Made by a program: the position numbers and the translations under genes
From: Formosa sediminum
GTDB taxonomy: Bacteria; Bacteroidota; Bacteroidia; Flavobacteriales; Flavobacteriaceae
Reading direction: 5' to 3'
Length of the DNA: 64,000 nucleotides
NCBI RefSeq assembly: GCF_007197735.1
Contig: NZ_CP041637.1
Coordinates: 620,001 to 684,000 of the forward strand
In this document: positions 11,379-17,479 of the stretch, piece after piece
Layout of the letters: the number at the start of each line of letters is the position of its first letter
Numbering within the stretch: position 1 is the stretch's first letter
The notes under the pieces: generated by a model
The model's input: the letters and a program-made list of their open reading frames with translations, nothing else
What the model was told of the DNA's origin: nothing
Databases searched by the model: none

Positions 11379-11774
11379 ATGAAATTATTAAACATAAAAC
11401 TTATAGCCTTAACTGGTTTTTGTGTTGTTACACTTTCTGCTGTAAGCTATGGGCAGCAAGGCCACATTGAGCTTAATCAAGATCCAAAAATTGATAAGTT
11501 ACTAGAAGTAAAAAAAGAAATGAATAAAGACGAAAACGCTACTAACCGTTTTAAAATTCAAATTTATTCAGGAAGTAGACTTGGTGCCGAGAAAGAATTA
11601 TCTAATTATAACAGTGCTTATGATAATTGGAAGGCAACACTAGTATACGAAACACCAAATTATAAAATTTGGGTTGGAAGTTATAGAAGTAGATTAGAAG
11701 CAGATCGTGCACTAGCAGAAATTAAAGATAACTATCCTAACGGGTTTATTTTTCAACCTAAACCTAAAAGTTAA
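11379..11774 (+). CDS. Secreted SPOR-domain protein
   Basis: It has 131 residues with a signal peptide (about 1-25, ending SYGQQ) and a C-terminal SPOR-like domain (about 57-127). That domain starts with the typical FKIQIYSGSR strand and includes the second-repeat pattern YKIWVGSYRSRLEADRAL. SPOR domains bind glycan strands of peptidoglycan that lack stem peptides, so a periplasmic cell-wall-associated role is likely. It has its own promoter and is convergent with infB across a shared terminator. No catalytic domain is attached. I have no specific function to assign. Confidence 0.85.
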   Translation: MKLLNIKLIALTGFCVVTLSAVSYGQQGHIELNQDPKIDKLLEVKKEMNKDENATNRFKIQIYSGSRLGAEKELSNYNSAYDNWKATLVYETPNYKIWVGSYRSRLEADRALAEIKDNYPNGFIFQPKPKS

Positions 11775-11782
11775 CACTTATA

Positions 11783-11832
11783 TATAGTCATAAAAAAAGG
11801 CAACCGATTGGTTGCCTTTTTTTATGACTATA
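11783..11832. terminator. Bidirectional terminator between the SPOR gene and infB
   Basis: A perfect 23-bp inverted repeat (11783-11805 and 11810-11832) with a 4-nt loop. A G+C-rich core, GGCAACC/GGTTGCC, is flanked by A7 and T7, so it reads as an intrinsic terminator on both strands and serves both convergent genes. Confidence 0.93.
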
Positions 11833-11838
11833 TTAAAC

Positions 11839-14754
11839 TTATTTAAGTTTCTTTTTAACTTCAACTTCATGGAATGATTCGATGACGTCACCTTCTTTAA
11901 TATCATTGTAATTCTTAATTTGCATACCACAATCATAGCCTTTGGTTACTTCCTTAACATCATCTTTAAATCGTTTAAGCGACGCTAATTCTCCTGTATA
12001 TACTACAACACCGTCTCTAATTAAACGTATACCATTAGTTCTTACAACTTTACCGTTAGTAACCATACAACCAGCAATGCTTCCTATTTTAGATACTTTA
12101 AAGATTTCTCTAATTTCTGCTGTACCAGTAATTTCTTCTTTAAGCTCTGGAGACAACATACCTTCCATTGCATCTTTAAGATCATTAATAGCATCGTAAA
12201 TAATAGAGTAGGTACGGATATCTATTTCTTCTTTATCAGCAATAGTTCTTGCATTACCCATTGGTCTTACATTAAATCCAATAATAATTGCATCTGAAGC
12301 AGAAGCCAATAATACATCACTCTCTGTAATGGCACCTACACCTTTATGGATGATGTTAACTTGAATTTCTTCGGTAGATAATTTCTGGAATGAATCTGTT
12401 AAAGCTTCTACAGAACCATCTACATCTCCTTTTAAAATAATGTTTAATTCTTGGAAATCCCCTAATGCTATACGACGTCCAATTTCATCTAAAGTAATAT
12501 GACGTTGTGTACGTACAGATTGTTCACGTTGTAATTGCGTACGTTTTGTAGCAATTTGTTTAGCTTCACGCTCGTCTTCAAAAACATTAAATTTATCTCC
12601 AGCCTGTGGTGCACCATCTAATCCTAAAATAGAGACAGGTGTACTTGGCCCAGCTTCTTTAATTTCATTTCCACGCTCATCATGCATGGCTTTAATTTTA
12701 CCACTGTTTTTACCAGCAAGTACGTAATCTCCAATTTTTAATGTTCCAGCTTGTACTAGAATTGTAGACACATATCCTCTACCTTTATCTAGAAATGCTT
12801 CAACAACAGTTCCTAAGGCTAATTTATTAGGATTTGCTTTAAGCTCTAACAATTCGGCTTCAAGTAATACTTTTTCTAATAATTCTTTAACTCCTGTTCC
12901 TTGTTTAGCTGAAATATCATGAGATTGAATTTTACCTCCCCAATCTTCTACTAATAAGTTCATTTGAGCTAAACCTTCCTTAATACGGTCTGGGTTAGCT
13001 GCGGGTCTATCTATTTTGTTAATTGCAAAAACAATCGGTACCCCTGCTGCTTGTGCATGCGCAATAGCTTCTTTTGTTTGAGGCATGATATCGTCATCGG
13101 CAGCAATAACAATAATTGCTAGATCTGTTACTTGAGCACCACGAGCACGCATAGCTGTAAAGGCTTCGTGACCTGGTGTATCTAAGAACGCTATTTTTTG
13201 TCCGCTTTCTAAGGTTACTCCATATGCACCAATATGTTGTGTAATTCCTCCAGATTCTCCAGCGATTACATTTTCCTTACGGATATAATCTAATAACGAT
13301 GTTTTACCGTGATCTACGTGTCCCATTACAGTAATAATAGGTGCACGTTCTACCAAATCTTCTGGTTTATCCTCTACTACTTCTATGTTTTCTTCAAGGT
13401 CTGAAGTCACAAATTCTACTTGGTAACCAAATTCATCTGCTACAATAGAAAGTGTTTCAGCATCTAAACGCTGGTTCATAGTAACCATCATACCTAACGA
13501 CATACATGCCGAGATAATTTGAGTTACTGAAACATCCATCATAGTAGCAACTTCACTAGCAGTAACAAATTCTGTTACTTTTAAGATTTTGCTTTCTGCT
13601 TCTTGTTGATCAATGTCTTTCTGACTTTGTTCTCTATGTGAATCTCTTTTATCTCTACGATATTTTGCACCTTTACCTTTATTGGATTTACCTTGAAGTT
13701 TTTCTAAAGTTTCTCTAACTTGTTTTTGTACTTCTGCTTCGCTAGGCTCCTCTTTAACTATTGGACGTTTAGATTGACCTGGACCGCCAGCTCTTTTTCC
13801 TTTATAGTTGCTAGGTTTAACCGTTCTTCCTGGTCCGTTAGAATTTCCTCCAGGTTTATTTGTATTATCTCCAGGTTTACTAATACGTCTACGTTTTCTT
13901 TTATTCGCAGAGGCATTATCTCCTGTTTTAGCAACAGGTTTCTTTTTAGGTTTATTAAATTGGGATAAATCTATTTTTTCTCCTGCAATTTTTGGTCCTG
14001 AAAGTTTAGTATATTTAGTTTCAATACGCTCGTCTACAACCGGTTTATCTTCTTCTGCCTTAGGCTCCGTTTTTTTAACGGGTTCTGTTGGTTTTGAAAA
14101 GTTTTTTTTCTTGTCCTCTTGAACAGGTTTTGAAGGCGTTGGTTGTGAAGGTGGTGTTACAGTTTTAGGCTTTTGCTCTACTTTAGGAGTGTGGTGTTGT
14201 ACTTTAGAGTGATCCTTTTGAACTGGTTTTTGTTCTTTATACTCTGGTTTAGTTACGGGTTTCACTATAGGTTTTTCTTCCTGTTTCGCCTCAACTTTAA
14301 CCTTTTTCTCTTCTGAAACAATCTCCTTAGGTTTCTCCTCTTCTGCTTTTGGCTGGACGGGTACTTCCTTTTTCTCTACAGGTTTAGTCGTTTCCTTAGG
14401 TTTAGGATTTAAATCGATTTTACCTACTTGTTTTGGACCTGAGAGATGTGATTTGGCTTTAACTATCTGGTCTCTCTTAGCTTCTTCTTTTTGTTTAGCT
14501 TCAAGTTCGCGCTCGCGCTGTTCACGCAAGGCTTCTTTTTCTTTCAGCTTCGCTTCGCTTACTTCTTGAGAGGCCACCTTCTTACTTGCATCTGTTTGAA
14601 ATTCTCCAGAAAGCACATTGTATACTTCCTGTGAAATTTTTGTAGTAGGACGCTTATCGATTTCCATACCTTTAGACTCTAAAAAATCTACTGCACGGTC
14701 GATAGAGATGTTTAACTCACGTAAAACTTTATTTAATCTTATTGTTTCAGCCAT
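11839..14754 (-). CDS. infB: Translation initiation factor IF-2
   Basis: GTPase that places initiator tRNA on the 30S subunit and promotes subunit joining. It has 971 residues. The N-terminus has an IF2-N helical domain ([18 protein letters not shown]), then a long disordered Lys/Pro/Glu-rich stretch (about 60-390), a second IF2-N domain, and the G domain with P-loop GHVDHGKTS near 478, DTPGHE near 529 and NKID near 578, followed by the beta-barrel and C-terminal domains. The length is typical of Bacteroidota IF-2. It is last in the rimP-nusA-infB operon, 30 bp after nusA. Confidence 0.98.
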
Positions 14755-14784: not shown

Positions 14785-16017
14785 TTATTCTTCAAACTCT
14801 TCTCTAAGAATTCTAATAACTTCGTTAATTGTTTCTTCTTCTAAATCTGTTCTTTTCACCAAATCTTCTACATCTTGGTCTAGAACACTTTTTGCTGTAT
14901 CAAGCCCAGCTTTGCTTAACTCATCAATAATCCAGCTATCAATTTCATCAGAAAACTCGGTTAACTCCACGTCTTCTTCTGCACCTTCTCTAAATACATC
15001 AATCTCATAACCTGTTAATTGACCGGCTAATCTGATGTTGTGACCACCACGTCCAATGGCTTTACTTACTTCTTCAGGTTTTAAAATAACTTCTGCACGT
15101 TTATTTTCTTCATCAATTTTAATTGATGTCACTTTTGCTGGACTTAGCGCTCTAGTGATGTACAATTGCAAGTTACTTGTAAAATTGATAACATCTATAT
15201 TTTCGTTACCTAATTCACGAACTATGCCGTGAATTCTAGATCCTTTCATACCTACACAGGCACCAACTGGATCTATACGATCATCGTAAGAATCTACTGC
15301 TACTTTTGCTTTTTCACCTGGTATTCTTACTACATTTTTAACAGAAATTAATCCATCAAAAACTTCTGGTATTTCTTGTTCGAATAATTTTTCTAAAAAT
15401 AAAGGTGATGTACGCGACATAATAATTGCCGGTTTACTTCCCTTTAATTCTACATTTTCAATTACTCCTCTTACATTATCTCCTTTTCGGAAAAAATCCG
15501 AAGGAATTTGTTTTTCTTTTGGTAAAATGATTTCGTTTCCTTCATCATCTAACAAAATTACAGCTCTATGACGAATATGGTGCACTTCTGCCGTATAAAT
15601 ATCTCCAATTAAGTCTTTAAACTGTTTGTAAATATTTGTATTGTCGTGTTCATGAATTTTAGAAATTAAATTTTGACGCAATGCTAAGATAGCACGACGA
15701 CCTAAATCTATTAACTTCACTTCTTCAGACACATCTTCACCTACTTCAAAATCAGGCTCAATTTTACGAGCTTCACTTAATGAAATCTCTTGATTTGGTT
15801 CTTCAACCTCCCCATCTGCAACTACAATACGGTTTCTCCATATTTCTAAATCGCCTTTATCTGGATTTATAATAATATCAAAATTATCATCATCTCCAAA
15901 TTTTTTCTTTAATGCGTTTCTAAAAACATCTTCTAAAATCGCCATTAACGTTACACGATCTATTAATTTATCGTCCTTAAATTCTGAAAAAGAATCAATT
16001 AACGCAAGATTTTCCAT
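14785..16017 (-). CDS. nusA: Transcription termination/antitermination factor NusA
   Basis: RNA polymerase-binding factor that controls pausing, termination and antitermination. It has 410 residues: N-terminal domain (about 1-125, including LMAILEDVFRNALKKKFG), S1 domain (about 130-200), and two KH domains (about 225-370, with CVGMKGSRIHGIVRELG and KAIGRGGHNIRLAG). A short acidic C-terminal tail replaces the longer repeats of enterobacterial NusA, as is usual for Bacteroidota. It lies 12 bp after rimP. The hairpin in the operon leader may make expression self-regulating. Confidence 0.98.
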   Translation of the reverse strand: MENLALIDSFSEFKDDKLIDRVTLMAILEDVFRNALKKKFGDDDNFDIIINPDKGDLEIWRNRIVVADGEVEEPNQEISLSEARKIEPDFEVGEDVSEEVKLIDLGRRAILALRQNLISKIHEHDNTNIYKQFKDLIGDIYTAEVHHIRHRAVILLDDEGNEIILPKEKQIPSDFFRKGDNVRGVIENVELKGSKPAIIMSRTSPLFLEKLFEQEIPEVFDGLISVKNVVRIPGEKAKVAVDSYDDRIDPVGACVGMKGSRIHGIVRELGNENIDVINFTSNLQLYITRALSPAKVTSIKIDEENKRAEVILKPEEVSKAIGRGGHNIRLAGQLTGYEIDVFREGAEEDVELTEFSDEIDSWIIDELSKAGLDTAKSVLDQDVEDLVKRTDLEEETINEVIRILREEFEE

Positions 16018-16029
16018 AACTCTTTTGAA

Positions 16030-16491
16030 TTAAAATTTAATCATCACTTTAGCTTCTACAATGTCGTTATAAGAAATATTTGCTTTTTTCTGAACAGTAA
16101 CTTTGCCTTTACCTACTGGTTTTGGCTCTCTTGCTTTCCATTCTAAAACTATTTCATCTTCATTAGCATCTACTAAAACAGCTTCAATAGTCTCTGTTTT
16201 GGTCTTAACTTCTAATGTTCTTCCTATATTTTTAGCATATTGCCTGCTTAGTAATAACGGAGATGCTGCTCCTGCAGACATAACTTCTAAAGAAAAATCT
16301 TGTTCTTCTCTGTCTATTCCTGATTCTATAGCCCGACTTACAAACATACAATCCTCTACACTCACACCTTCATCTCCATCAATAATGATTTTAATAGCAT
16401 GCTCTGCGGAAATAGTTAAACTTATCAAAAACAAATCATTTCGTTCTTGTAAGGTCTTTTCTAATAAATCTTCAACAGTTGTTCTAAACAT
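16030..16491 (-). CDS. rimP: Ribosome maturation factor RimP
   Basis: Small factor needed for 30S subunit maturation. It has 153 residues, with the N-terminal alpha/beta domain including ISAEHAIKIIIDGDEGVSVEDC and the pattern LEVMSAGAASPL, close to the family's LEVSSPG. The C-terminal Sm-like barrel follows (about 85-153). It is first in the rimP-nusA-infB operon, a very conserved order. The ATG at 16491 follows a terminator-like hairpin. Confidence 0.95.
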   Translation of the reverse strand: MFRTTVEDLLEKTLQERNDLFLISLTISAEHAIKIIIDGDEGVSVEDCMFVSRAIESGIDREEQDFSLEVMSAGAASPLLLSRQYAKNIGRTLEVKTKTETIEAVLVDANEDEIVLEWKAREPKPVGKGKVTVQKKANISYNDIVEAKVMIKF

Positions 16492-16501
16492 TTTTTAGTA
16501 T

Positions 16502-16525
16502 AAAAAGAGGGGACTCTGTCCCCTC
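16502..16525 (-). promoter_or_regulatory. Terminator-like hairpin in the rimP-nusA-infB leader (possible attenuator)
   Basis: GAGGGGAC and GTCCCCTC form an 8-bp G+C-rich stem with a 3-nt loop (16507-16525). On the minus strand a run of five T (16502-16506) follows at once, 11 nt before the rimP ATG. It has the full form of an intrinsic terminator but lies inside the leader, downstream of the promoter at 16552-16559. Confidence 0.7.
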
Positions 16526-16551
16526 GCATATTCTTTTTTCTTACAACGTGG

Positions 16552-16559
16552 CAAATATA
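16552..16559 (-). promoter_or_regulatory. Promoter -7 element for rimP-nusA-infB
   Basis: On the minus strand this reads TATATTTG, an exact TAnnTTTG match, 61 nt upstream of the rimP start. A TTG-containing sequence lies about 21 nt further upstream. Confidence 0.6.
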
Positions 16560-16651
16560 CAATTTTTTTATTAATTAACGCAAGCTTTCAAATATCAAAT
16601 TTTATCCGTAATTTTATACTGCCGTTTAACCAAAAAAACTAAAACATACTC

Positions 16652-17479
16652 ATGAAAAGAATAATGGTCCCAACAGATTTTTCGGACGAAGCAGAATACG
16701 CTACTAAAGTTGCCGCTAAATTTGCTAAAAAATTTGATTGTGAAATACACTTATTACACATGATAGATCTTCCTGTTGCAGAACTAGATAAAATGCACCC
16801 TACTTATAGCGAAATACCGGAGGCACTTTATTTCATGAAACTTGCAGCAAAAAAATTTAACGAACTCTTAGAGAAAAACTTTTTACAAGACATTACCGTA
16901 CATCACTCTATAAAAACCAACTCTACATTTCAAGGTATAAATGAAACTGCAAGAGAATTAGATATTGATCTTATAGTTATGGGCTCTCATGGCGCAACAG
17001 GTTTTAAAGAAATCTTTATTGGCTCTAACACAGAGAAAGTTGTACGTACTTCTGAAGTCCCAGTTTTAGTTATTAAAAGTTCTATAAACGAATTTAAAGC
17101 AGATGACATGGTGTTTGCCTCAGATTTTAATATTGAAAACAAACATACCTACACAGAAGCCATAAAATTTGCTGAAAAATTTAATTCTAAAATTCACTTA
17201 CTATTAGTAAACACACCTAACACCTTTTCTACAAGTAAAGAATCTCTAGACCGTATTGAAAAATTCATTGAAGGTTCTGATTACAAAAATTACACCATAA
17301 ACATTCAAAACGACGATACTATTGAAAAAGGCATTTTAAACTTTGCTGAAAAAATTAGCGCAGATATTATTGGCATTAGCACCAATGGGAGACAAGGTAT
17401 TGCACATTTCTTTAATGGTAGCATTAGCGAAGACATAGTTAACCACGCCGTAAGACCTGTTATTACTTTTAAAATTTAA
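16652..17479 (+). CDS. Tandem-domain universal stress protein
   Basis: Cytoplasmic UspA-family protein of 275 residues with two Usp domains. Domain 1 (about 1-147) opens with RIMVPTDFSDEAEYA and carries the nucleotide-binding signature GSHGATGFKEIFIGSNTEKV, where the G-x2-G-x9-G-(S/T) pattern suggests ATP binding. Domain 2 (about 150-275) has a weaker form, STNGRQGIAHFFNGSISE, so it may bind less well. It is a single gene, divergent from rimP, and ends at a good terminator. Confidence 0.93.
   Translation: MKRIMVPTDFSDEAEYATKVAAKFAKKFDCEIHLLHMIDLPVAELDKMHPTYSEIPEALYFMKLAAKKFNELLEKNFLQDITVHHSIKTNSTFQGINETARELDIDLIVMGSHGATGFKEIFIGSNTEKVVRTSEVPVLVIKSSINEFKADDMVFASDFNIENKHTYTEAIKFAEKFNSKIHLLLVNTPNTFSTSKESLDRIEKFIEGSDYKNYTINIQNDDTIEKGILNFAEKISADIIGISTNGRQGIAHFFNGSISEDIVNHAVRPVITFKI

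Follow-up and report, generated by a model that had tools for sequence, protein, structure and literature searches.

The locus described here raises the question of what a complete terminator signal does between the promoter of the rimP-nusA-infB operon and its first gene. The window, that is, the whole stretch of DNA analysed, comprises 64,000 nt of Formosa sediminum (GCF_007197735.1, NZ_CP041637.1, positions 620,001-684,000, forward strand), and positions below are those of the window. On its minus strand lie rimP (16030..16491, ATG at 16491; Pfam RimP), nusA (14785..16017; Pfam NusA_N and KH domains), which is the proposed source of feedback, and infB, encoding IF-2 (11839..14754; Pfam IF-2), in this order. 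A universal stress protein gene (16652..17479, plus strand; Pfam) is divergent from rimP, and promoter, hairpin and U-tract all sit in the gap between these two genes. Downstream of the operon, a hairpin with T-runs on both strands (11784-11831) stands between infB and a convergent gene (11379-11774, plus strand); it is likely the operon's bidirectional terminator.

Read on the minus strand, the leader can be divided into a few short parts. A TTG at 16581..16583 is the probable -33 region of the promoter, as judged by its distance to the -7 box and by the -33 consensus. The -7 box itself, TATATTTG (16552..16559), agrees with the sigma-A consensus TAnnTTTG, which occupies positions -12 to -5 (PMC9723704), so that transcription is predicted to start at 16547. 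Next come an A-rich leader of 22 nt (16526..16547), weakly structured in folding predictions, and a hairpin of 19 nt, GAGGGGAC AGA GTCCCCTC (16507..16525, about +23 to +41), which was picked out by the terminator scan as well as by folding, conservation and covariation. The hairpin has a G-rich 5' arm, a loop of 3 and eight perfect pairs, six of them G-C, and is followed by a U-tract of five U with A at position 6 (16502..16506, about +42 to +46), whose TTTTT ends 10 nt 5' of the rimP ATG. Counted from the predicted start, the stopped RNA would be ~46-49 nt long and the full leader ~56 nt. The original prediction had placed a G+C-rich hairpin of 8 bp and five U between the -7 box and the rimP ATG, and direct reading of the sequence bears this out.

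Given that terminator-like signals are common in this region, a hairpin of this kind might have arisen by chance or might serve as the terminator of the upstream gene. Specifically, the terminator scan found 10 sites in 14 kb where 5.7 were expected, the rimP-leader hairpin being among them and also being scored on the plus strand, where its tail is poor. On the other hand, the minimum free energy of the 46-nt leader RNA was -15 kcal/mol, whereas shuffled sequences averaged -6.15 (z -3.86) and 1 in 200 of them folded as well, and the motif GGGGACN{3,8}GTCCCC occurred at a single place in the 3.93-Mb genome, namely in the rimP leader. We also examined the other genes of the window as a control (60 ORFs of at least 100 aa, reduced to 53 by dropping 7 overlapping ones, of which 43 are preceded by 25 nt or more of intergenic DNA). 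A terminator-like signal was present upstream of 5 of the 43 genes, rimP included. The other four are preceded by a co-directional gene, whose terminator the signal may be; rimP is the only one of the five without such a gene, and since the universal stress protein gene is divergent, the hairpin is not the terminator of the gene upstream. Elsewhere in the window, a terminator-like hairpin of 13 pairs (18642-18613, minus strand) lies directly 3' of tRNA-Gln (18719-18646, minus strand); its 5' arm is C-rich, a polarity opposite to that of the rimP leader.

Conservation of the stem in related genomes had been named beforehand among the tests on which the prediction could fail, and the stem is conserved. 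The best 80 of 117 relatives gave 79 loci and, together with the window, 80 leaders. Under a strict criterion, hairpin and U-tract were present in 80 of the 80 leaders, compared with 0.05 of 80 after dinucleotide shuffling; the opposite strand also qualified in 35 of the 80, probably because the leader is A-rich. In a profile search, RimP was found at E 1e-8 in 93 of 100 genomes of the family. The pattern GGGGACN{3,8}GTCCCCTC occurred in 71 of these 100 genomes, at one place per genome and each time at most 60 nt upstream of the RimP match (71/71), and a reversed control pattern occurred in 3 of 100, indicating, with the single place in the F. sediminum genome, that the motif is specific to rimP. 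The 22 rimP-bearing genomes of the family without the exact motif all keep the hairpin, its purine-rich 5' arm and the U-run, as judged by eye, with a mismatch, bulge or short stem in five of them (L220, L221, L222, L224 and L225). L215 and L218, where rimP starts ~100 nt farther on, are no exceptions, since their hairpin still adjoins the promoter. The conservation in 80 of 80 leaders and the linkage to rimP at 71 of 71 places, together with the uniqueness of the motif and the divergent upstream gene, refute a chance hairpin or a terminator of the upstream gene, an explanation that we find hardly credible.

The stem is also kept by compensatory change. All eight pairs, G-U included, are retained in 65 of 65 unique rows, a figure that leans upward because similar, well-paired registers were preferred in choosing among them. 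Across 14 distinct stem types, every one of the eight pairs changes on both sides. When these 14 types were shuffled, eight pairs were reached in 1 of 500 trials (21 cells compared with 3.2), a comparison that is flattered since the types were hand-picked as perfectly paired and hence pair at 100% by choice. The covariation score was 0.648, compared with 0.189 for shuffled and at most 0.209 for slid controls. These data bear on the idea of a DNA operator, in which a dimeric repressor would bind the inverted repeat over the transcription start. A perfect inverted repeat just past the promoter, found at one place in the F. sediminum genome and in each of the 71 family genomes, would suit such an operator. 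However, the arm spacing varies from 3 to 9 nt in the unique rows and reaches 12 in L194, which would shift the half-sites; furthermore, the arm sequence drifts while pairing is kept, and the U-run stands on the 3' side. The operator idea was dropped on account of the varying loop length, and we regard it as very improbable.

The position of the hairpin is fixed with respect to the promoter rather than the gene. In 55 Flavobacteriaceae-like rows, the -7 box and the hairpin were 26.3 ± 1.5 nt apart (24-29), while the hairpin and the RimP match were 21.7 ± 21.4 nt apart (10-111). Note that L017, L036 and L038, where the finder had picked a farther hairpin, were left out of the spacing and folding calculations, and loci from L059 on out of the spacing as well. 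The fixed promoter distance and free gene distance point to an event in early transcription and argue against a ribosome-binding-site role. Class-wide, the spacing as measured by script is looser (5 to 30 nt).

RimP was present in 144 of 159 class Bacteroidia genomes, and we drew 60 of the 144 by hand, about one per family. Under a relaxed criterion, 55 of the 60 leaders had a hairpin with U-run, compared with 1.15 for mononucleotide shuffles and 19 of 60 for the opposite strand. Within the 55, the finder took a farther hairpin in L159, L186 and L202, although the canonical one is present nearer the gene, and L196, ambiguous by eye, perhaps belongs with them. The five misses comprise L154 and L155, where a poor U-run follows the hairpin, and L167, L181 and L187, where no such hairpin was found by script or by eye. 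A draw from the GTDB phylum, where RimP was found in 243 of 247 genomes, comprised 60 of the 243 leaders, hand-chosen among the matches listed, 35 of the 60 being in class Bacteroidia. Under the strict criterion, 44 of these 60 among the matches listed were positive (dinucleotide shuffles, 0.35; opposite strand, 8); under the relaxed one, 52 were, compared with 1.1 after shuffling, namely 32 of 35 within the class and 20 of 25 outside it. Outside the class, the stem sequence differs (e.g., AGUGGG...CCCACU). As a separate observation, three loci of one family of the same order (L090, L091 and L092, family f5) have a different rimP-leader hairpin, near GGCCTTCGG...AAGCCTTTTTTCG, in a similar place; it passes the relaxed finder in L091 only.

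The U-run is less uniform than the hairpin in the class. The longest run within ten tail bases was shorter than 4 in 12 of 55 class leaders of one set and in 7 of 32 of another, and termination may be weak or factor-dependent in these. In L154, L155, L159 and L202, the GGGGAC/GTCCCC hairpin is intact and followed by a poor U-run, e.g., TTGCATTT or CTTCATTC, which hints that the hairpin may serve there as a pause or factor-dependent terminator. Leaders of this kind would also be expected if the hairpin were mainly a 5' mRNA element, acting in stability, processing or the binding of RimP, NusA or IF-2, and termination came second or did not occur. However, the other leaders keep the U-run directly 3' of the stem, and the hairpin has no set distance from the gene (10-111 nt), so that we consider a role as mRNA element improbable.

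An attenuator at this place has precedents. The rimP-leader of Naville and Gautheret (2010) was described as the attenuator with the widest occurrence among 302 genomes, found in "the majority of species", with NusA named as best candidate regulator (PMC2965389). The element described here resembles it in having, in the leader of rimP-nusA-infB, a hairpin with G-rich 5' and C-rich 3' arm before a T-stretch, in lacking a visible antiterminator, and in being absent from other terminators (PMC2965389). The published element stands 4-130 nt before the gene and follows GGGc(...)gCCC (PMC2965389), whereas the family of Formosa has mostly GGGGAC(...)GUCCCC, ~26 nt after the -7 box. The GGG/CCC core is kept in most unique rows, and the next pairs are mostly G-C, A-U and C-G. 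The main text of that paper names Firmicutes and Gammaproteobacteria and does not contain "Bacteroid" or "Flavobact", while its supplementary species lists may include Bacteroidota (PMC2965389). In Flavobacterium psychrophilum, a structured 5' element upstream of rimP, also found in other Flavobacteriaceae genera, was reported in 2021 with no Rfam hit and, in the part of the article that treats it, no mechanism (PMC9723704); it is very probably the same element. The main text on the Bacteroides thetaiotaomicron map mentions neither rimP nor nusA (PMC7366714), and in the main text of open-access articles we found no other treatment of the element in Bacteroidota.

Rfam covers the rimP leader with RF01770 (102 positions, gathering cut-off 47 bits). 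Searching the window leader against Rfam, at the gathering cut-off and at E up to 10, returned only matches below the cut-off and none to rimP. In 14 control genomes, RF01770 matched in E. coli only, and in 20 genomes (that of F. sediminum and relatives) it gave no match over the cut-off and seven weak places in five genomes, those of G005 and G007 not being at their rimP. We built a covariance model, R1, from a MAFFT alignment in which the 5' arm is misplaced in some rows; the pairs reported above were counted by script and on the arms only. Of the 8 matches that R1 gave at E up to 1 in the F. sediminum genome, the rimP-leader site was the best, with 47.5 bits. R1 matched in 181 of 247 phylum genomes, and since it also scores generic terminators, these matches were kept out of our counts. 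The kind of attenuator is thus known, as rimP-leader, and the present leaders extend it across class Bacteroidia, beyond the reach of the Rfam rimP model. This brings the rimP-nusA leader attenuator to bacteria whose promoters differ from those of the usual model organisms.

We next consider how such an attenuator could be regulated. Folding was predicted for 77 leaders (the 79 loci from the best 80 of 117 relatives plus the window, less the three named above). The hairpin formed with a mean pair probability of at least 0.919 (median 0.996). Upstream of it stand a median of 20 nt, whose bases pair with a mean probability of 0.30, or 0.24 in the window, suggesting that they are weakly structured rather than bare. 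In none of the 77 folded leaders was an antiterminator or competing stem predicted, in agreement with the initial remark that no competing upstream stem was obvious. A leader-peptide attenuator was also rejected: an ATG lies between the predicted start and the hairpin in only 33 of 77 leaders, and the leader reading frames differ among the window, L009 and L016, the three rows compared by eye.

The original prediction read the leader as an attenuator, and for this its conservation and covariation, the U-tract, the promoter anchoring and the rimP specificity give strong support. We favour, with a probability of roughly two in three, a promoter-proximal intrinsic terminator that acts as attenuator of rimP-nusA-infB and in which NusA-stimulated termination provides the feedback. 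RNA polymerase would start near 16547 and make ~22 nt of weakly structured, A-rich RNA, whereupon the hairpin would fold, the polymerase would stop in the short U-tract near 16502, and an RNA of ~46-49 nt would be released. Some polymerases would read through into rimP. Since the leader has no competing stem, no conserved ORF and no room for a riboswitch, it is most probably an elongation factor working at the hairpin, and NusA in particular, that would determine the read-through fraction, so that more NusA would give more termination and less operon mRNA. The leader sequences themselves establish the hairpin and the U-tract, with their conservation, covariation, position and link to rimP; from these we infer the start site, the termination event, its efficiency and the part of NusA as sensor.

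The original work on B. subtilis nusA autoregulation is reportedly that of Mondal et al. in 2016. According to a review, termination in the 5' leader is the means by which NusA of B. subtilis controls its own gene, a system that is alike in that NusA stimulates an intrinsic terminator ahead of the same operon (PMC12288461); the B. subtilis rimP leader has 180 nt (PMC2965389), compared with the ~56 nt predicted in Formosa. In E. coli, NusA regulates the rimP-nusA-infB operon (PMC6511841), and in S. agalactiae a predicted terminator in the rimP-nusA leader, for which NusA feedback was suggested, halts transcription 31 nt from the start (PMC4448216). The S. agalactiae leader RNA, likened here by its description and from another phylum, is similar to that of Formosa but shorter (PMC4448216), and a claim that ours is the shortest known leader was dropped for this reason. 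NusA is favoured because nusA lies in the operon and because of these three precedents, and the absence of a competing structure fits NusA feedback. The NusA feedback that the original prediction also suggested is proposed by analogy with other phyla, and an attenuator of fixed strength would look alike in sequence. In addition, a rimP fusion was lower in a Rho mutant of E. coli (PMC7815308), which we counted against attenuation with NusA feedback.

The polarity of the stem distinguishes the leader from other terminator-like sites. In the family set, G outnumbers C in the upstream arm of 57 of 57 leaders. Among 50 other terminator-like sites, taken from 36 of these loci, this holds for 6, while 36 have more C and 8 equal G and C; the related loci are not independent, and the 50 sites include both strands of some hairpins. 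Among 95 class Bacteroidia leaders, 87 hairpins were found and 86 had a G-rich upstream arm. Outside the class, in the phylum draw among the matches listed, this polarity holds in 11 of 20 and fails in 9 of 20. Non-leader DNA of the class loci yielded three hairpins, all with more G than C, too few to use as a control.

Terminators that are stimulated by NusA are typically suboptimal, with a weak hairpin or an interrupted U-tract. In the family set, position 6 of the tail is U in 21% of the 57 leaders and A in 79%, compared with U in 70% of the 50 other sites. This interruption fits NusA-stimulated termination. However, position 6 is U in 82% of 55 and 84% of 32 class leaders, so that the interruption belongs to the family set and is no class-wide mark, which slightly lowered our confidence in an attenuator with NusA feedback. 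The stem in the window is strong (-15 kcal/mol). These results bear on another explanation, in which a fixed share of polymerases is stopped at the terminator whatever the level of NusA. The same sequence evidence fits a fixed share, the leader has no sensor domain, and a U-tract mark of NusA dependence is missing class-wide. However, a fixed share needs no particular polarity, whereas the G-rich polarity is kept in 86 of 87 class hairpins as against 6 of 50 other sites at the family loci, and NusA feedback on the operon is reported in B. subtilis (PMC12288461) and E. coli (PMC6511841). We therefore regard constitutive attenuation as unlikely and favour attenuation with NusA feedback.

A more specific reading, possible but doubtful in our view, is that the leaders form a class-wide Bacteroidia RNA family with a minimal leader of ~46 nt, in which NusA, or NusA together with NusG, reads the G-rich ascending arm and polarity itself is the sensor. 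Recognition of the G-rich arm would then take place while it emerges from the polymerase, which would have reached a fixed point past promoter escape. Since the polarity is not kept outside the class, reading of polarity would be a solution of class Bacteroidia; if so, feedback at the level of the operon would be shared with other phyla, while polarity reading would be class-specific. The G-rich polarity, opposite to that of most terminator-like sites at the family loci, offers a testable clue to how elongation factors read intrinsic terminators, and the minimal leader is a setting for testing NusA sensing free of competing structures.

Finally, the profile searches for RimP gave two minor observations. 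In the class set, a RimP match at E 1e-8 was missing from 4 of 4 genomes of family f64 and 3 of 4 of family f89, all seven being 95-100% complete, and loss or strong divergence of RimP is possible there. In another genome (G446:C9:56723-57242), the RimP match falls into two pieces, covering profile positions 2-60 and 61-152 with ~67 nt between them, suggesting that rimP may be an interrupted or split gene at this locus.
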